Part shown: piece after piece, positions 3,011 to 14,500 of the stretch
Layout of the letters: each line of letters begins with the position of its first letter
How positions within the stretch are numbered: the first letter of the stretch is position 1
Assembly: GCA_905236615.1 (NCBI GenBank)
Contig: CAJORC010000006.1
Location: 1 to 15,178 of the forward strand
DNA length: 15,178 nt
Reading direction: 5' to 3'
Source: an uncultured Lachnospiraceae bacterium
Lineage (GTDB): Bacteria; Bacillota; Clostridia; Lachnospirales; Lachnospiraceae
Program-made: the position numbers and the translations under genes
The notes under the pieces: model-generated
The model's input: the letters and a program-made list of their open reading frames with translations, nothing else
Database searches by the model: none
Told to the model about the DNA's origin: nothing

Positions 3011-3065
3011 ACAACATAAAAGAAATACTGATTAATGTCAGGCATAACTGTGAATAATTGGGCGG

Positions 3066-3094
3066 TTTAAATCGTGCATAATTTGTGGTAAAAT
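3066..3094 (+). promoter_or_regulatory. Promoter upstream of dinB (or of a small leader RNA)
   Basis: TTTAAA at 3066-3071, a 17-base spacer, and TAAAAT at 3089-3094 with the TGn extension at 3086-3088. The same architecture and much of the same spacer recur at the citrate synthase promoter (4550-4578), which strengthens both calls. Transcription would start near 3101, giving dinB a leader of about 160 bases that contains the hairpin at 3138-3175. Confidence 0.6.
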
Positions 3095-3137
3095 TAAAAA
3101 CTATACATATATTTGTGTGTCGATTTGTTAAAGGATT

Positions 3138-3175
3138 TAAACAGAGGGATGGTTTTACAGCCATCCCTCTGTTTA
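3138..3175. repeat. Perfect 15-bp inverted repeat in the dinB leader
   Basis: TAAACAGAGGGATGG (3138-3152) is matched exactly by its reverse complement at 3161-3175 around an 8-nt loop. The + strand continues GATAAAAAAGG and the - strand AAATCCTTT, so neither side has a proper T-run. It is therefore not a textbook terminator, although the GTTTA end of the stem might serve weakly. No flanking direct repeat is visible. Confidence 0.8.
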
Positions 3176-3260
3176 GATAAAAAAGGCAATTGTTAAGCAC
3201 AGTTCGAAGCATTTTGTTGCAGTCTGCGTAATGACATGAATTGTAACTGAGGTGATGACT

Positions 3261-4532: not shown

Positions 4533-4549
4533 ATGAAACACTTTAGCTG

Positions 4550-4578
4550 TTTAAATCGCAAACAATTTATGTTAAAAT
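4550..4578 (+). promoter_or_regulatory. Promoter of the citrate synthase gene
   Basis: TTTAAA at 4550-4555, a 17-base spacer, and TAAAAT at 4573-4578 with TG at 4570-4571 (extended -10). It begins 17 bases after the dinB stop codon and gives a leader of about 80 bases before the start codon at 4665. Confidence 0.65.
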
Positions 4579-6084: not shown

Positions 6085-7683
6085 ATGGATAGATATTCGG
6101 TTTTGATGGCAGATGATGAGGAAGAGATCCTTGAAATAATCCTTAGAAAACTGAATTGGGAAGAACTGGGATTTGAGATCGCGGGAAGTGCGAAAAACGG
6201 TGTTGAGGCACTGGAACTTGCTGAAGAACTGCAGCCGGATGTTGTGATGACCGATATTAAAATGCCTTATATGGACGGTCTTACACTGGCTCACCGTGTA
6301 AAAGAGATCAATCCGAAGGTAAAGATCATAATCTTTTCGGGTTTTGACGATTTTGAATATGCGAAGGAAGCAATAAAACTTGAGGCTGAGGAATACCTCT
6401 TGAAACCTGTAAATTCCGAAGAACTGGAAAAGGTTTTTAAGCGGATAAAGACGGGGCTGGATCGCGAGCTTGACGAGAAGAGGAACGTCGACAAGCTCAA
6501 GAACTATTATATGGAAAGTCTTCCGATAATGCAGGAGAGTATTTATACCGCACTTCTGCAGGGCCAGCTCAAAGACAAGAGAAGGGAAGAACTTTTTAAG
6601 AACTACCAGATAGAATTCAGCGGTGATGATTACCTGGCGGCACTTATCCATCTGTCGTCCAAGGAAAGACCGGAAGGAATAGAACCTTCGCTGCTTCTTG
6701 TATCGGTCCGCCGTCTGGCAGGAGAGGAACTGCAGGGAAAGTGGAATGTCAAGCTGGTCAACTGGTTTGGTGATATAGCAATGATAGTCTGCCTTAATGA
6801 AGAAGATGATGTAAGAGAGTTTACGGATGCCTGTGACCGTTTCTGCCGTTCGGTAAAAAAAGTCACGGGAGCTGTCGTCACTGTGGGAATAGGAGACAGG
6901 GTTGAAAGTCCTGAAGAGCTTTCAGATTCTTTCAGGGGTGCGGACAGTGCCGTAAGTTACCGGATGATGTATGGCAGCGGAAGAGCAATAAATATAGCGG
7001 AGATAGATCCTTCTGAAAGAAGTTCGCTCCCTTCTGTCGAGGACGGAATGAGAGAGGTCTTTCACAGGATAAAGACTTCCGGAAAGAAAGAATTAAAGGA
7101 GTCAGTAAAAAATCTTGTTGAGGAGATCATCGGAATAAAAACAAGCATACAGCAGTACCGCATTTTCGTTATGGAAATGATCGCCGGAATTTACAGATTT
7201 GGAAGCAGCAACAACCTGAATATGGAGGATATTTTCGGAAAAGGAGCAGACGCCTATTCAGAGGCACTTTCAATCGGAACGCCGCAGCAGCTTGTGGACT
7301 GGCTTTGCGGTATATCCGTAAAGATGCAGGAGAAGGTTGCGAATGAACGTGTAAGTTCTACCAAGTCTTTTGTTGAGAGAGCAAAGGACTATGTAAGAGA
7401 CAATTATTCAAATAAGGATCTTACGATTGAAATGGTATGCAGTTATCTTGCGGTAAGTTCGGCTTATTTTTCAACTGTCTTCAAGAAAGAAACCGGAAAG
7501 ACTTTCGGGAATTATCTGACTGAGGTCAGGATGAAAAAGGCTGTGGATATGCTCGTAAATGAAAATGAAAAGACTTATGTTATAGCGGAAAAGACCGGAT
7601 ATTCAGATCCGAATTATTTCAGCTATGTTTTCAAGAAGCAGTTCGGAATGAGTCCGTCCAAGTATAAAGCAGGAGCAAAATGA
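6085..7683 (+). CDS. YesN-like response regulator with AraC-type DNA-binding domain
   Basis: Transcription factor expected to be phosphorylated by the kinase encoded next. Residues 1-125 are a complete receiver: acidic pocket D10/D11, phosphoacceptor D57 in VVMTDIKMPYMDG, switch residue S85 in IIIFSGFDDF, and K107 in EYLLKPV. Residues about 130-425 are the long linker usual in YesN proteins, including a degenerate GGDEF-like part (VTVGIGDRVESPEELSDSFRGADSAV). Residues about 430-530 are two AraC helix-turn-helix motifs (LTIEMVCSYLAVSSAYFSTVFKKETG and YVIAEKTGYSDPNYFSYVFKKQFG). The start has GAGG 9 bases upstream. Its stop overlaps the kinase start as ATGA. I find no clear promoter between it and citrate synthase. 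Likely targets are sugar-uptake genes, by analogy only. Confidence 0.93.
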   Translation: MDRYSVLMADDEEEILEIILRKLNWEELGFEIAGSAKNGVEALELAEELQPDVVMTDIKMPYMDGLTLAHRVKEINPKVKIIIFSGFDDFEYAKEAIKLEAEEYLLKPVNSEELEKVFKRIKTGLDRELDEKRNVDKLKNYYMESLPIMQESIYTALLQGQLKDKRREELFKNYQIEFSGDDYLAALIHLSSKERPEGIEPSLLLVSVRRLAGEELQGKWNVKLVNWFGDIAMIVCLNEEDDVREFTDACDRFCRSVKKVTGAVVTVGIGDRVESPEELSDSFRGADSAVSYRMMYGSGRAINIAEIDPSERSSLPSVEDGMREVFHRIKTSGKKELKESVKNLVEEIIGIKTSIQQYRIFVMEMIAGIYRFGSSNNLNMEDIFGKGADAYSEALSIGTPQQLVDWLCGISVKMQEKVANERVSSTKSFVERAKDYVRDNYSNKDLTIEMVCSYLAVSSAYFSTVFKKETGKTFGNYLTEVRMKKAVDMLVNENEKTYVIAEKTGYSDPNYFSYVFKKQFGMSPSKYKAGAK

Positions 7684-9521
7684 AGAGACTGAGGGGATTA
7701 AGAAAAAGAACCGTTGTTTTAATGAACCGGAAGATACTGCGCCCCGAAATGAGAACCATTCAGGTGACGACGGCGCTTTATTTTACAACGGTTGCCGTTG
7801 CAATGGTTTTCATCATTTCTCTGATACTCTACAAGCAGTTTGTAAGCCGGAGCGAAAAAATGCAGATCGATGCCACAAACCGCATTTTAAGCCAGAGCCT
7901 TATAAACCTTGAAGATTATCTCAGAAGTATGAGAAGAGTTTCCGATACTGTCTATTACAGTACGATCAAGGATAAGGATCTGTCTGAAAACGGTGTGGAA
8001 GAAGACATGGCACTTCTCTATGAGGCTAATAAAGATAACCTTATCAGTATTGTATGTTTTGACGCGGACGGACAGCTCGTGGTAGCTACACCTAACAATA
8101 AGATGAAGGCGAATGCGAAAGTATCGGAACAGAGCTGGTTCAGGGAGGCACTTGCACAGGTTGAGAATCTTCATTTTTCGACACCCCATGTTGAAAATCT
8201 TTTTGCAGACAGTTCTTACAGATATTACTGGGTACTTTCACTTTCGAGGGCGATCGAACTGACAAAGGGCGGACGGCCCGAACCCGGAATCCTTCTGGTT
8301 GATATGAATTATTCAAGGATAAATGAGCTTTTATCCAAAGTCAACAGTTCCGGAAACGGAGAATATGTTTATCTTACGGACAGTGAAGGACGTATAATCT
8401 ATCACCCGAAGAAACGTCTTATCGTGTCAGGTCTTTATGAGGAAAACAATCATGAAGCAGTTAATTACAGCGAGGGCGTAACGAGGGAAGTCTTTAACGG
8501 CGAGGAGCGCGTGGTGCTTACCAGATCGGTCAGCTATACGGGATGGAAACTGATCGCGGTCGTGCCAATGAGCACTTTCCGTTTGGGATTCAGAGGATTT
8601 CAGCTTTATGCGGTTCTGGTGGTAACACTGGCACTGCTTGCGATCATAGTCGTCAACCAGCTGGTATCCTACAGGATCGCTCTTCCTTTAAGGAAGCTGG
8701 ATCGTTCGGTAAGGAAATGGGAAGCCGGAGATTCTTCCGCGCAGATCTATATCGGAGGAAATGCAGAGGTCGAGCATCTGGGGCGGACGATGTCCGCTAC
8801 ACTGGCGCAGCTCCGTAAGCTTATGGATGATATCGTTATGGAACAGGAGCAGAAGAGGAAGAGTGAGCTTGATGCCCTGCAGAGCCAGATAAATCCGCAC
8901 TTCCTTTATAATACACTGGAGTCCATTGTCTGGATGATAGAGGGCGAACGTTATAGAGATGCGGTCTATATGGTTACCGAGCTTTCGAGTCTTTTCAGGG
9001 TAAGTCTTTCAAAGGGGAAGACGATCATAAGAATCGCGGACGAAATTAAACATGCCACTAATTATATGAACATACAGAAGATCCGTTATAAGAATTCTTT
9101 TACGGTTGATTTTGACATCGCGGAAGACATAATGGAATGCTGTACGGTAAAGCTTGTCATCCAGCCTCTTCTGGAAAATGCCATTTATTATGGTATTGAG
9201 GGTATGGATGGAGAAGGTGAGATAGAAGTAAAAGGTTACCGGAAGGATGATGACATTTATCTGGAGGTAAGGGATAATGGTGTCGGAATGCCGCCGGAAG
9301 TTGTTGAAAGCCTTCTTAATGATGAGGGTAAAAAATATGCGCACGGTTCCGGCGTCGGAGTGATAAACGTGCATCGACGGATTCAGATAAGGTTCGGAGA
9401 AGCCTACGGACTGGAAATTGAGAGTGAGCCGGATGAAGGAACCGTTATGCGGATACATCTGCCCTATACCCTGTATGGCAGTGATACCCAGCAGCTGCTT
9501 GAGAAGGGGGGACGGAGATGA
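7680..9521 (+). CDS. YesM-like sensor histidine kinase (dCache-HAMP-HisKA_7TM/LytS-type kinase)
   Basis: Membrane sensor kinase of 613 residues. It has a basic N-terminus, a first membrane helix at about residues 29-51, and an extracytoplasmic region at about 55-300 that reads as a dCache-type sensor (for example FDADGQLVVATPNNK and YVYLTDSEGRIIYHP). A second helix lies at about 305-330, followed by HAMP (LPLRKLDRSV onward). The phosphorylated H407 is in QSQINPHFLYNTLES, characteristic of the His_kinase/LytS-YesM class. ATP-binding residues follow: N500 in QPLLENAIYYGIEG, D532 in DNGVGM, and the glycine loop GSGVGVINVHRRI. The start ATG overlaps the regulator's stop (ATGA) and has AGGAG 4 bases upstream, implying translational coupling. 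An internal ATG at 7722 lacks a ribosome binding site. Confidence 0.93.
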   Translation: MKRLRGLRKRTVVLMNRKILRPEMRTIQVTTALYFTTVAVAMVFIISLILYKQFVSRSEKMQIDATNRILSQSLINLEDYLRSMRRVSDTVYYSTIKDKDLSENGVEEDMALLYEANKDNLISIVCFDADGQLVVATPNNKMKANAKVSEQSWFREALAQVENLHFSTPHVENLFADSSYRYYWVLSLSRAIELTKGGRPEPGILLVDMNYSRINELLSKVNSSGNGEYVYLTDSEGRIIYHPKKRLIVSGLYEENNHEAVNYSEGVTREVFNGEERVVLTRSVSYTGWKLIAVVPMSTFRLGFRGFQLYAVLVVTLALLAIIVVNQLVSYRIALPLRKLDRSVRKWEAGDSSAQIYIGGNAEVEHLGRTMSATLAQLRKLMDDIVMEQEQKRKSELDALQSQINPHFLYNTLESIVWMIEGERYRDAVYMVTELSSLFRVSLSKGKTIIRIADEIKHATNYMNIQKIRYKNSFTVDFDIAEDIMECCTVKLVIQPLLENAIYYGIEGMDGEGEIEVKGYRKDDDIYLEVRDNGVGMPPEVVESLLNDEGKKYAHGSGVGVINVHRRIQIRFGEAYGLEIESEPDEGTVMRIHLPYTLYGSDTQQLLEKGGRR

Positions 9522-10489
9522 AATCAGACAAGATAGTGCTTATCGCCGCCATTACCATACTTCTTTCGGTTATCGCGCTGGTAAGCTGGCAGATAGTTAA
9601 TATGGGACGAATGACTGAGCCTGTAAAGGTTTCGGTCATAGTTAATAATTCAAGCCTTGACAGATGGACTAATTTTAAGGAAGGCTTGAAGCAGGGTGAG
9701 AAAGATTTTGATATCAGGATAAATCTCGTCTCAACTTCGGATATCGTTTCGATGGCAAATGAGAAGGAAATTATAGAGAAAGAGATTGCAAACGGAGCGG
9801 GAGCACTGATCGTAGAACTGTTCAACAGTTATAACCAGACAGCTTATCTGGAAAACATTAATAATGAAGTTCCGATCGTTCTTGTCAGTACAGACTCATC
9901 TCCGGAAGATGTCTTTTATTCCGTTACTTCCGATAATACTTCTATAGGAAGAACACTTGCCATGGAATTAAAACGCGATCTTGAGGGAAAGCCGGCCAGA
10001 GTGGGTATCCTTGCCGGAAATCAGGAACAGCTTTCGATGTTTCAGCGCCTGAGCGGTTTTCGAAAGGAGATAGAGGGCGGCAGAATAGAGATAGTATGGC
10101 AGATCTCCGGACATGATAATTCAGGTGTGGTCGCAAAGATGATGGACTACCAGAAGGAGAAGCATGCAGAGTATTGTATCGCACTTGGCAATACGGAAAC
10201 AGAGAAAGCGATAGAGTATTATAATGTATTTGGCGGAACTTTTGAGGGTGCCGTTTATGGTGTGGGATGTTCGGAGGAGGCTGTTTATTATCTTGACAAC
10301 GGACTGATCAGAAAACTTATTGTTCCGGATGAATATGATATGGGATATAAGTGTGCCCTTTCCATAGCGAAGCGGATATCATATATAACCGAAGCGGATA
10401 AGCATATTGATACGGCATTTAAAGTAATCGACGGTGACAGTCTTTATAATCCCGAAAATCAGACTTTGATATTTCCGGAAGCGCAGTAA
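9518..10489 (+). CDS. Membrane-anchored sugar-binding-protein homologue (putative co-sensor)
   Basis: A 323-residue protein with a single N-terminal membrane helix (about residues 6-26), no lipobox cysteine and no obvious signal-peptidase site. It should therefore stay anchored with its binding domain outside. Residues about 36-300 follow the periplasmic-binding-protein type 1/4 fold: VSVIVNNSSLDRWTNFKEGLKQG, GAGALIVELFNSYN, VPIVLVSTDS, SDNTSIGRTLAMEL, RVGILAGNQEQLSMFQRLSGF. It overlaps the kinase gene by ATGA, so the three proteins are probably made in step. Known parallels (XylFII with LytS and YesN in clostridia) suggest that it binds a sugar and passes the signal to the kinase; the ligand is unknown. 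It does not look like a transport lipoprotein. Its stop codon lies within the left copy of the GTAATAGT repeat that flanks the adjacent palindrome. Confidence 0.88.
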   Translation: MKSDKIVLIAAITILLSVIALVSWQIVNMGRMTEPVKVSVIVNNSSLDRWTNFKEGLKQGEKDFDIRINLVSTSDIVSMANEKEIIEKEIANGAGALIVELFNSYNQTAYLENINNEVPIVLVSTDSSPEDVFYSVTSDNTSIGRTLAMELKRDLEGKPARVGILAGNQEQLSMFQRLSGFRKEIEGGRIEIVWQISGHDNSGVVAKMMDYQKEKHAEYCIALGNTETEKAIEYYNVFGGTFEGAVYGVGCSEEAVYYLDNGLIRKLIVPDEYDMGYKCALSIAKRISYITEADKHIDTAFKVIDGDSLYNPENQTLIFPEAQ

Positions 10490-10543
10490 TAGTGTTACAA
10501 TTCAGTTCCCAATTGGTTGGGAACTGAATTGTAACGTAATAGT
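10486..10543. mobile_element. 42-bp perfect palindrome flanked by an 8-bp direct repeat (candidate micro-insertion)
   Basis: The left arm at 10494-10512 (GTTACAATTCAGTTCCCAA) and its exact reverse complement at 10517-10535 surround TTGG. Directly outside both ends, with no gap, is GTAATAGT (10486-10493 and 10536-10543); the bases beyond these copies differ. This is what an insertion of a 42-bp palindromic unit with an 8-bp target duplication would leave. There is no T-run, so it is not a standard terminator. On the mRNA it forms a stem of 19 bp immediately before the Shine-Dalgarno of the lipoprotein gene. The mobile origin is inference; the palindrome and repeats are directly visible. Confidence 0.7.
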
Positions 10544-10556
10544 TGGGAAGGTAAAC

Positions 10557-11567
10557 ATGAAAAATGGAGTTGTTAAAAAGCTGACAGCGGTGATCCTGCT
10601 GGCATCACTCTGTCTGTCGGGATGTGAAAAGAAGGAAGAGGAAAAGACCTCGATAAAGGTTGGGGTAACGGTGTATGACAGTCATGATACATTTATTTCG
10701 GAGCTGATGGGCGATTTTAACGAACTCGTGACGAAGAAGGCATATGAGAGCGGTGTCGCGATCAGCGTTGAAGTAATGAATGCAGGCTGGAACCAGTCCA
10801 CGCAGAACAGCAATGTCGAGGATATGATCGACAACGGCTGTGATATTCTATGTGTAAATCTTGTTGACAGAACTGCACCGACTGCAATAATAGATATAGC
10901 GAGACAGAAGAATGTTCCCATTATTTTCTTTAACAGGGAACCGGTGGAAGGTGATCTGGACAGATGGGATCATCTCTATTATGTGGGAACCGATGCGAGA
11001 CAGTCAGGAGCAATGCAGGGAGAGATCGCTGCAGAGGCATTTACGAAACATCCTGAATATGACCGTAACGGGAACGGAGAGATAGAGTATGTTATGATCG
11101 AGGGAGAAAGCGGACATCAGGATGCGATCGTCAGAACCGAAGTTTCGATCAGCAAACTCGCTGACTCCGGATTCAAAGTAAAGAAGCTTCAGTCGGCAAT
11201 AGGCAACTGGCTTCGGCCACAGGCATTCACGAAGATGGAACAGATAATAGCCGAATACGGAGACGAGATAGAGCTTGTCATGGCAAATAATGATGACATG
11301 GCACTTGGTGCGATCGATGCCTATAATTCGGCGAAGATACCATTGGAAAAACGTCCGGTGATAATCGGAATTGACGGCACGGATGCCGGTGTTGTTGCCG
11401 TAAAAAATAAAGAGATGTACGGTACTGTCTTTAATGACACAAAAGGTCAGGCAGAAGCAATGGTGGATCTTATCTATGCTGAGAGCGTTCTGGGAAATAC
11501 TTCCGGTATAGATTTCAGTGAAGACAGGGTTATCCGTGTGCCTCACAGTAAGATTGTTGGTGAGTAG
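10557..11567 (+). CDS. mglB: MglB-like D-galactose/D-glucose-binding lipoprotein
   Basis: Extracellular sugar-binding protein tethered as a lipoprotein: 336 residues with signal sequence and lipobox LSGC (C23). The mature part follows E. coli MglB closely. FFNREP..YYVGTD matches the hinge region, and DRNGNGEI (from D169) matches the calcium loop. GESGHQDAIVRT holds the His, Asp and Arg ligands of the sugar, and W in GNWLRPQA is the stacking tryptophan. ANNDDMALGAIDA, GIDGTDAG and GTVFNDTKGQA supply the remaining polar contacts. Galactose or glucose is therefore the likely ligand (inference from conserved residues). GGGAAGG at 10545-10551 is the ribosome binding site, 5 bases before the ATG. 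No MglA ATPase or MglC permease follows, so the partner transporter must be elsewhere or lost, or this protein serves sensing or chemotaxis. It is the fourth gene of the sensor operon. Confidence 0.9.
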   Translation: MKNGVVKKLTAVILLASLCLSGCEKKEEEKTSIKVGVTVYDSHDTFISELMGDFNELVTKKAYESGVAISVEVMNAGWNQSTQNSNVEDMIDNGCDILCVNLVDRTAPTAIIDIARQKNVPIIFFNREPVEGDLDRWDHLYYVGTDARQSGAMQGEIAAEAFTKHPEYDRNGNGEIEYVMIEGESGHQDAIVRTEVSISKLADSGFKVKKLQSAIGNWLRPQAFTKMEQIIAEYGDEIELVMANNDDMALGAIDAYNSAKIPLEKRPVIIGIDGTDAGVVAVKNKEMYGTVFNDTKGQAEAMVDLIYAESVLGNTSGIDFSEDRVIRVPHSKIVGE

Positions 11568-11581
11568 GAGCGTTAAATTAA

Positions 11582-14500
11582 ATGTCTTTTGTGCATTTGC
11601 ATACCCATACGGAATATTCACTTCTGGATGGGTCGAATAAAATAACTGAATATGTATCAAGAGTAAAAGAACTCGGAATGAATGCGGCAGCCATCACAGA
11701 CCACGGTGTTATGTACGGGGTAATAGATTTTTATAAAGCCTGCAAAGCTGCGGAGATCAATCCGGTTCTTGGCTGTGAAGTCTACGTGGCGCCGGGGTCG
11801 CGTCATGAAAAACAAGGAAAAGCCGATGATGACAGATATTATCATCTGGTACTTCTTGCTGAAAATAATGAAGGTTATCAGAACCTTATGAAGATAGTAT
11901 CCATCGGTTTTACGGAAGGCTACTATTATAAGCCCCGTGTTGATAAAGAGATACTGAGAAAATATCATAAGGGAATAATAGCATTGTCTGCATGTCTTGC
12001 CGGTGAGATTCCCAGAGCACTTGTGCGAGGTCAGAGAGAAGAGGCGGAAAAGCTTGCACTTGAATATGAGGAAATATTCGGAAAGGGGAATTTCTTCCTT
12101 GAACTTCAGGATCACGGGATAAATGCGCAGCGCCTTGTTGACCAGGAACTTGTTGCGATGTCGTCAAAGCTCGGGATAGAACTTGTTGCGACAAACGATA
12201 TCCATTATACATATCATGAGGATGAAAAAGCGCATGATATACTTCTCTGTCTGCAGACCGGAAAAAAACTTGCGGATGAAGACAGGATGCGCTATGAAGG
12301 CGGTCAGTATTATGTGAAATCAGAGGAAGAAATGCAGAAGCTCTTCCCATATGCGCTGCAGGCTCTGGAAAATACGCAGAAAATAGCTGACAGATGCCAT
12401 GTGGAGATAGAATTCCACAATACAAAGCTTCCGCATTTTGAAGTACCCGAAGGCTATGATTCATGGAGTTATCTAAATCATTTATGCGAAGAAGGATTCA
12501 GAGAAAGATATCCTGATGATGACGGAAAACTGCACGAGCAGATGATCTACGAATTATCCGTCATAAAGAAGATGGGTTATGTGGATTACTTCCTTATAGT
12601 ATGGGATTACATAAATTATGCAAAGGAACACGATATACCTGTAGGTCCGGGAAGAGGATCTGCGGCCGGAGCGATAGTTTCTTATGCGCTGAAGATCACG
12701 GATATCGATCCTGTTAAATACGACCTTCTCTTTGAGCGTTTTCTTAATCCCGAGCGTGTGTCCATGCCCGATATAGACGTGGACTTTGCATATGAAGGCC
12801 GTCAGCAGGTCATTGATTATGTGGTGGAAAAATACGGCAGGGATAAGTGCGTACAGATCGTCACTTTCGGTACACTGGCTGCCAAGGGTGTTATCAGGGA
12901 TGTTGCCAGAGTTATGGATCTTCCCTATTCCTTTGGTGATAACCTTGCAAAAATGATACCTGTCGAGCTCAATATCACTCTTGATAAGGCACTTAAGGAA
13001 AATAACGATCTGAGAAAACTGTATGAAACGGATGAGACGGTGCATCTTGTAATAGATATGTGCAAAAGGCTTGAAGGACTTCCGAGGCACACTTCCATGC
13101 ACGCAGCGGGAATACTTATCACACCTGAGTCGGCAGATAATTATGTTCCGCTGTCGAGAGGATCCGCAGGGGAAGTTACGACCCAGTTCACAATGACAAC
13201 ACTGGAAGAACTGGGACTACTGAAAATGGACTTCCTTGGTCTGCGTACACTTACGGTAATTCAGGATGCGGTCAATTTTGCGAATGAAAGACATCCGGGA
13301 CTCAATCTTGATATAAATAAGATCGACTATGATGATCCTGAGGTTCTCAAATATATATCCACAGGAGAAACAGACGGTATTTTCCAGCTGGAGTCCGGCG
13401 GAATGCAGCGGTTTATGAAAGAACTTTCTCCCGAAAGCCTTGAAGATATCATCGCGGGTATCGCTCTTTACAGACCGGGCCCGATGGATTTCATACCTAA
13501 ATATATCGAGGGAAAGAAGAATGCCGGAAATGTCAGCTACGACTGCCCGGAACTGGAGCCGATACTTAAACCTACCCACGGCTGTATAGTTTATCAGGAA
13601 CAGGTTATGCAGATAGTACAGCAGCTCGGCGGTTATACGCTGGGACGGGCAGACCTTGTGCGCCGTGCCATGAGTAAGAAAAAGCAGCATGTCATGGAGG
13701 AAGAACGGGCTAATTTCGTTCACGGAAATGCGGAGCAGGGAGTGCCGGGATGTGTTGCAAAAGGTATATCCGAGGAGACTGCTTCGAAGATATACGGCGA
13801 CATGATGGATTTCGCAAAGTATGCCTTTAATAAATCACATGCGGCCTGCTATGCTTATGTTACTATGCAGACGGCCTTCATGAAATATTATTATCCTGTG
13901 GAATTTATGTCTTCCATCATGACAAGTTTCATGGATAATCCGGGTAAGGTTGCCGGATATATAATGGTATGCCGGAATATGGGAATCTCGATTCTTTCAC
14001 CTGACATAAACGAAAGTGCCGGAGGATTTACACCATCCGGGGAAAAGGCGATCCGCTACGGACTTAAGGCGATCAAATCCGTCGGCAGGCCTATCATTGA
14101 AGCAATAGAAAATGAACGTGAAAAGAACGGAAAATTTACAAGTATTGATGATTTTATAGAGAGGCTGGCCGGAACGGAACTTAACCGCCGTGCAGTTGAA
14201 TCCTTCATCAAGGCGGGAGCTCTGGATTCTCTCGGAGGAACGCGGAAACAGTATATGTTTGTCTACAATGCGATCATTGACAATGTTGTGGATGAACGTA
14301 AAAATAACGTGGCCGGACAGATGAGCATTTTTGATCTTATGTCCGGAGAGGATGTGAAGAGCAGGCGTTTCAGTCTTCCGAATGTCGGGGAATTCCCTGA
14401 GGATGAACGGCTTTCGTATGAAAAAGAAGTGCTGGGGGTATATGTAAGTTCCCATCCGCTTCTTGAATATGAAAATCTTTTGAAAAAAAATACTACAGCA

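Follow-up and report, generated by a model that had tools for sequence, protein, structure and literature searches.

The small dispersed repeats of cyanobacteria treated by Elhai in 2008 are reportedly very small mobile repeats. Among bacterial MITEs, excerpts of a review describe QMITE1 of Coxiella, with copies of 39–400 bp (PMC10969869). Partial texts of the primary reports describe RUP of Streptococcus pneumoniae, a 107-bp repeat tied to IS630-Spn1 (PMC2229807), and MITEPsy1 of Pseudomonas syringae, a 100-nt element with a 4-nt duplication that is linked to ISPsy2 and whose transposition in the cell was shown (PMC3189936). Within the IS66 family, ISDge4 of the ISBst12 group has the ends GTGACTACTCAGCA / GTAACTGCTCAGCA and the 8-bp duplication CCTCGATG, and the group is defined by a single ORF, according to the part of the source consulted (PMC12898284).

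The stretch of DNA analysed here (15,178 nucleotides from an uncultured Lachnospiraceae bacterium, hereafter the window) contains a 42-bp palindromic mobile element (micro-MITE) with ends GTTACAATTCAGT at positions 10494..10535, delimited from the sequence, an inverted-repeat scan, its copies and the 8-bp repeats, and assigned to neither strand. Its left arm, or left terminal inverted repeat, spans 10494..10512 (+ strand) and its right arm, the exact reverse complement, 10517..10535 (− strand); in the inverted-repeat scan the arms are 19 nt long, 100% complementary and separated by 4 nt, the strandless loop TTGG (10513..10516). Both outer ends are abutted by the 8-bp target-site duplication GTAATAGT, likewise strandless, whose left copy (10486..10493) contains the upstream gene's TAA stop and whose right copy occupies 10536..10543. 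The first-pass annotation had described exactly this arrangement, a perfect 42-bp palindrome bracketed without a gap by an 8-bp direct repeat, and its positions hold to the base. It had also judged the flanking match very unlikely by chance, which calculation bears out: from the base composition, flanking 8-mers would match with a probability of about 2e-5, and the expected number of perfect 19-bp palindromes in the window, loops of 0–20 being allowed, is about 1e-6. On the + strand of the window GTAATAGT occurs only at the two flanking places, and on the − strand once. The palindrome (10494..10535) encodes no protein.

That the palindrome was inserted at this site is close to certain, and we consider it very probable, on comparative sequence grounds, that it represents a minimal non-autonomous DNA transposon belonging to a modular MITE family of the genus, for which an IS66-type transposase would be the likely helper in trans. 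The whole transposon would consist of two 19-bp terminal inverted repeats, each comprising GTTACAATTCAGT and an inner arm, joined by 4 bases. Insertion into the intercistronic gap with an 8-bp staggered cut would have generated the target duplication GTAATAGT.

The gap in question separates two co-directional genes for sugar-binding-type proteins. The upstream gene (9518..10489, + strand) encodes a protein with a periplasmic-binding-protein domain (PF13407, profile search) and is preceded by a sensor kinase gene (7680-9521, profile search), while the downstream gene (10557..11567, + strand) encodes an MglB-like sugar-binding protein (PF13407 above the cut-off; best NCBIfam model NF011924, below its cut-off). 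The left repeat begins at the last base of the codon preceding the stop, and TAA (10487-10489) is intact. The earlier claim that the stop codon was preserved inside the duplicated target therefore stands, but the gene that it terminates, then called a sensor gene, is the one for the PF13407 protein. On the opposite side, the start codon of the downstream gene and GGGAAGG (10545..10551, + strand), its likely ribosome-binding site as judged from the sequence, both lie 3' of the right 8-mer, outside the insertion. With the element just before this ribosome-binding site, a putative effect on the operon would act as an mRNA hairpin; no terminator was called at the palindrome, whose stem has no T-run after it.

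Several further sequence features were observed in the window. A scan for promoter-like sites, which returned 10 such sites versus 4.7 expected, gave a weak match at 10466-10493 (TTGATA, 16 nt, AATAGT; 9/12) that ends in the left 8-bp copy, and a − strand match at 10555-10528 that overlaps the right arm of the palindrome. A strong inverted repeat (3135-3178; 18-nt arms, 94% complementary, 8-nt loop) lies upstream of the gene at 3252, and a 42-nt direct repeat, 74% identical, is found at 3053-3094 and 4537-4578, upstream of the ORFs at 3252 and 4665.

The draft genome from which the window derives (G000; 2.47 Mb, 447 contigs, 76% complete) contains 11 matches to the arm with up to three mismatches (5 forward, 6 reverse), against none for a reversed control. 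The identical 42-mer is also present at C259:227-268, where its flanks read TTTATAAA/TTTATAAT, compared with GTAATAGT/GTAATAGT in the window (C6). Two diverged palindromes were found at C311:4653-4694, with no duplication alongside, and at C196:998-1039; the latter is the end of a 152-bp composite (C196:888-1039, flanks AATTTTAT/AATTATAT), which has at one end a hairpin nearly the same as that of the window. Contig C257 contains a single arm with a degenerate partner and C72 one arm alone, and the match in C98 (three mismatches) looks like chance. Dispersed copies with different 8-bp flanks, which the first-pass annotation had regarded as a proof of insertion, are present both in the own genome and in relatives.

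Beyond this genome, the arm pattern was detected in 2 of 61 genomes, namely its own and one congener, G033, in which the reversed control also matched (4 and 2 vs 1 and 1). Among 397 family-level genomes, the single-arm pattern with up to two mismatches was found in three (the own genome plus two isolated arms), and the exact paired pattern, which would miss diverged hairpins such as that of G139, in the own genome only. The end motif GTTRCAATTCAGT occurs in 13 of the 48 genomes of the genus, its reversed control giving 3 and 4 matches in G033 and 1 in G459; some of the matches are unpaired and probably coding, for example the same stretch in G028, G006 and G029. Within this sample, the element family seems to be confined to the genus. 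Since G033 yields several reversed-control matches, it may contain a further repeat whose composition is similar. The exact arm pattern was also present in two contigs of genome_contigs, titled Saprospiraceae and Arthrobacter. A viral origin was considered and rejected: a 16-mer scan of viral contigs returned at least 120 stretches, the 80 listed having one match each, which were taken as chance, and the exact paired pattern was found in none of the viral contigs.

The upstream gene has matches in 13 of the 48 genomes, its own included. In six relatives (G464, G033, G459, G460, G457 and G461) it adjoins the downstream gene, and the remaining matches are remote (17–27% identity). The palindrome is absent between the gene pair in all six. 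The comparison with relatives that the first-pass annotation had proposed thus speaks for insertion, as every relative that has the gene pair lacks the element, and the contrary pattern that it had named, a palindrome conserved at this locus and found nowhere else, is not what is seen, with the element missing from 6/6 relatives and its copies dispersed. Because the element is absent at the orthologous site in these relatives, the palindrome is not locus-conserved. In the nearest relative, G464, whose contig starts within the upstream gene, the upstream protein is 84% identical over its final 38 residues and the downstream protein 87% identical over 316 residues; its gap reads CAGTAATCATGGGG at the place where the flanks of the window, once joined, give CAGTAATAGTTGGG.

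These gaps without the element bear on whether the palindrome might instead be a conserved operon hairpin, such as an attenuator or an mRNA stabiliser, maintained by selection and flanked by a coincidental 8-bp repeat. Its position between two co-directional genes, a stem that covaries across species and a strong RNA fold (−29.3 kcal/mol for 10484-10545, z −7.4, equalled by none of 200 shuffles) would all suit such a role. We nevertheless regard this possibility as almost negligible, given that the hairpin is missing from the orthologous gap in 6/6 relatives, is present at unrelated loci with 8-bp duplications, and has no Rfam match at E values up to 1 in a scan of positions 9400-11700. That scan gave one sub-threshold match, outside the element (10088-10162), and no Rfam family scored above its gathering threshold for the element. 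A conserved RNA element was rejected on the absence in relatives together with the Rfam scan.

The second identical copy in the own genome (C259) occupies the leader of a lacI-type gene, and G459 and G464 lack the element there. In the leader of these orthologous lacI-type genes, G000 (C259:227-268, L141) and G033 (C1 near 573600, L174) each carry one single hairpin with different arms; the duplications are TTTATAAA/TTTATAAT, with one mismatch, in G000 and CAAAAGCA, exact, in G033. The two hairpins are best read as independent insertions in one leader, which is possibly an insertion hot spot. Both lie between a TTGACA/TATAAC-like promoter, recognised by eye, and the ribosome-binding site. Another hairpin of G033 (L143) has no counterpart in G459, and G464 preserves its flank on one side only.

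Target duplications were scored across the family in 70 sequences, comprising the window, six stretches and 63 regions around all other GTTRCAATTCAGT motif places from the search of the 48 genomes of the genus. These contain 94 strand-wise left ends, a symmetric palindrome being counted once per strand, and an end was accepted when an 8-bp repeat, perfect or with one mismatch, stood exactly outside a GTAAC-like right end 30–600 bp off. This was the case for 31 of the 94 left ends, and for none when seven shifted offsets were tried per end; the other 63, a mixture of decay, chance matches and contig ends, have no recognisable duplication. The 31 ends represent 25 distinct elements from 9 genomes, 18 with exact duplications and 7 with one mismatch. 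By size, nine elements measure 39–43 bp, one 52 bp, one 111 bp and fourteen 147–210 bp. Besides that of the window, exact duplications in the small class are GATAAAGT and TGCTTTTG (G033), TATTATTT (G015), GCGAGTGA (G139), ATCAATAC (G024) and GGATGATG (G032). A second scan, with other-type ends, detected exact 8-bp repeats at 4 of 21 left ends (control 0/146), three of them at new hairpin-B elements of 63–64 bp in G015 and the fourth at an element already counted. When ORFs of at least 150 aa were called mechanically, 22 of the 25 elements overlapped none, two lay inside one and one overlapped one.

Target duplications of 8 bp are not expected of Y1 single-strand transposition. Their presence, together with ends on which inspection by eye showed neither a GTAG nor a CGTC tag, leaves the element without either REP/REPIN hallmark, the tag or the missing target duplication. 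It is accordingly extremely unlikely that the palindrome is of the REP type and owes its spread to a Y1 (RAYT) transposase, even if its size and intergenic position are like those of REP sequences as described in excerpts of the literature (PMC3733652).

The family comprises hairpin A (39–43 bp), hairpin B (52–64 bp) and composites (111–210 bp, mostly A-middle-B), and each of these forms was found exactly bracketed by 8-bp duplications. The 15 composites carry a hairpin of 37–43 bp at one end. In end-type counts that were not blind, left ends being restricted to GTT[AG]C and right ends to a list of eight variants, with GTTGC permitted on both sides, GTTAC accounts for 28 of the 30 outer ends of composites (hairpin outer end 13/15, far end 15/15), and the inner end of their hairpin is GTTGC in 12 of 15 cases, GTTAC in two and GTTTC in one (outer vs inner GTTAC, Fisher 1.3e-7). 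By the same counts, GTTAC occupies both ends in seven of the nine free small hairpins (p 0.003 versus composite inner ends), the palindrome of the window among them, and the other two have GTCAC or GTTGC on one side. The inner arms vary between species (TTCCCAA, TGTCAGC, GGTC, GCGCC and others) and stay complementary: over 35 rows picked by eye from 50 distinct hairpins in a way that favours pairing, positions 13–18 are 79% Watson-Crick, compared with a mean of 59% and a maximum of 68% in 2000 shuffles and with 14–30% in slid pairings. The 15 rows left out were a coding match, truncated or odd-length hairpins, decayed ones and a few near-duplicates, and pairs were counted by a symmetric pairing script because the MAFFT alignment placed a gap beside one arm. 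As the position-4 bias and the arm pairing both come from related sequences, the tests overstate independence.

Because free hairpins have GTTAC at both ends, the small hairpin probably moves as a unit, with both of its ends carrying the outer-type GTTAC. This pattern points to a hairpin cut at both its ends, not a leftover, and the element of the window is likely to move as a 42-bp unit. The first-pass annotation had offered two options, a minimal mobile unit or the residue of a larger element; the former is favoured, and each holds part of the truth because larger family elements have this very unit as their end hairpin. As a residue, the palindrome would descend from a composite of about 150 bp that inserted with an 8-bp duplication and of which, after loss of the middle and the far end, a single hairpin remained. 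Such a history gains from the 152-bp composite with nearly the same hairpin in the same genome and from the ends common to composites and single hairpins. It would require, however, that in 9 of 25 elements a simple deletion had one breakpoint precisely at the inner edge of the hairpin and the other at the far duplication, and the inner end so retained would usually be GTTGC (12/15 composites), whereas both ends in the window are GTTAC; moreover, the genome has the identical 42-mer at two unrelated sites. We therefore hold a residue to be decidedly unlikely for the window, although one of the nine small hairpins, L223, which has GTTGC, could be the residue of a composite. Within the preferred reading of a minimal transposon, we give even chances to a more specific proposal drawn from the end patterns: that the transposon is only two abutting ends, a MITE end hairpin going free at 39–43 bp once its inner end changes from GTTGC to GTTAC, and that a DDE transposase is able to cut and join ends 42 bp apart.

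The candidate for moving the element in trans would be the DDE transposase of an IS66-type IS with GTTAC-NR-TTCA ends. In a helper search that covered the IS66 and IS256 transposase families, IS66-domain proteins were found in 20 of the 48 genomes, and a lower-scoring, divergent IS66 group ends in the motif, whereas the 20 loci above 130 bits do not. The IS66-type ends in the genus read, with few exceptions, GTTAC[ACT][AG]TTCA[CG]; they conform to GTTAC-NR-TTCA but do not agree with the hairpin-A end over its full 13 bases. Exact 8-bp duplications bracket a 2314-bp copy in G013 (AGAGGATT) and a 2193-bp copy in G028 (GTTCATTT); the copies of G031 and G457 (2237 bp, GTTACAGTTCAGAC ends) have matching 8-mers on contig ends, a second full copy in G028 (2190 bp) has no duplication, and the right end of the G016 copy coincides with a contig end. 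Two of the group's proteins score 69.6 and 53.4 bits with PF03050 (cut-off 23.1), which identifies the IS66 DDE transposase domain, and 125.8 and 173.2 bits with the NCBIfam IS66 model NF033517, below its cut-off of 180. Among the 120 best of 2784 matches, the few named relatives are transposases of Butyrivibrio, a Lachnospiraceae bacterium and Petrocella.

In both copies read, those of G457 and G028, the transposase is preceded by an ORF of 98–104 aa, and the G033 remnant also has a small upstream ORF (83% identity); no clear family match was obtained for the two 98–104-aa ORFs (L286:171-467 and L281:1003-1317), one having coiled-coil-like matches and the other none. Membership in the ISBst12 group was rejected on account of this additional ORF, which sets the two copies apart from the single-ORF definition given in the consulted part of the source (PMC12898284).

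The helper protein, fragments included, is present in 12 of the 48 genomes, with full-length copies of the group in G031, G457, G013, G028 and G016; in these five genomes GTTRCAATTCAGT is absent save for one unpaired, probably coding match (G028). In the element-rich genomes no intact helper was found: G000, G015, G032, G464 and G465 have no protein match, and G033 and G458 have only internally deleted IS copies of about 0.75 and 0.68 kb; several of these assemblies are incomplete (76% for G000), but completeness reaches 93% in G015 and 99% in G033. The comparison with resident IS ends suggested by the first-pass annotation gave matches in relatives and none in the window's own incomplete genome. 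One hairpin-B end in G015, GTTACTGTTCAGACCC, has 16 bases in common, without a difference, with the terminus of the IS remnant in G033.

The missing intact copy would be explained if the micro-element were mobile but relied on another 8-bp-duplicating transposase. This is possible but rather improbable, as the GTTAC-type IS66 group is the only one among the IS loci examined that combines GTTAC-TTCA ends with 8-bp duplications, its internally deleted copies persist in element-rich G033 and G458, and its remnant shares the 16 bases with the G015 hairpin. The 20 IS66 loci above 130 bits yielded no matching ends outside an 8-bp repeat, save one unrelated pairing in L249, and only scattered matches with up to two mismatches, including one close pair in L258. 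The IS256 type had no paired ends in the 4 loci examined of 12, two of which contained one unpaired one-mismatch match each. Seven IS256-type transposase pieces, some at contig ends, were observed in G139 (L322, L324, L326, L328-L331), which suggests a multi-copy IS256 in that species. Transposition of the 42-bp element by a GTTAC-type IS66 transposase is the best available but unproven explanation.

Taken as a class, the family has the attributes of MITEs: short, non-coding sequences with terminal inverted repeats, a target duplication of fixed length at different sites (25 elements, 18 exact; shifted controls 0), and dispersed copies with sites lacking the element in relatives. Its candidate autonomous partner would be the IS66-type IS of the genus, which has this end pattern and duplication length and, in the G033 remnant, the 16 bases of a hairpin-B end, although no intact copy was found in the element-rich genomes. 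Like the bacterial MITEs in excerpts of the review, its members are short, non-coding and foldable, have inverted ends and target direct repeats, and come in several sizes per family; by contrast, its smallest form is two abutting ends, equals the end hairpin of a larger form and has GTTAC-WR-TTCAG ends, a contrast that leaves aside the build of the 39-bp QMITE1 copies (PMC10969869). RUP, in the text seen, is likewise a small intergenic repeat proposed to be mobilised in trans by an IS acting on matching ends, but at 107 bp and with IS630-Spn1 it differs from a smallest form of 39–43 bp with 8-bp duplications (PMC2229807). MITEPsy1 is also a non-coding element with inverted ends; its 100 nt, 4-nt duplication and ISPsy2 link are, from the part available, its own (PMC3189936). 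With ISDge4 as excerpted (PMC12898284), the IS of the genus shares its end pattern, GTNACTRYTCAG, and a duplication of 8 bp; unlike an IS of the ISBst12 group, the palindrome itself encodes nothing.

The kind of element, a MITE, is already known, and copies down to 39 bp are reported in Coxiella in the excerpted review (PMC10969869). In the literature searched (listed titles and abstract starts, with most subscription papers outside its coverage), we found no description of this family, its modular build or the two-ends-only form; no title on Lachnospiraceae MITEs dealt with this element family, and none was found on IS66 insertion sequences in Butyrivibrio. If true, the proposed reading would mean that DNA as short as this can be moved by a DDE transposase and still give a normal target duplication, and would pose the physical problem of how two ends separated by only 42 bp meet. 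It would also supply a natural one-base contrast, GTTAC versus GTTGC at position 4, that predicts active ends. The family would also be a source, open to testing, of preformed mRNA hairpins that come to lie in intergenic gaps and leaders and leave stop codons and ribosome-binding sites unbroken.
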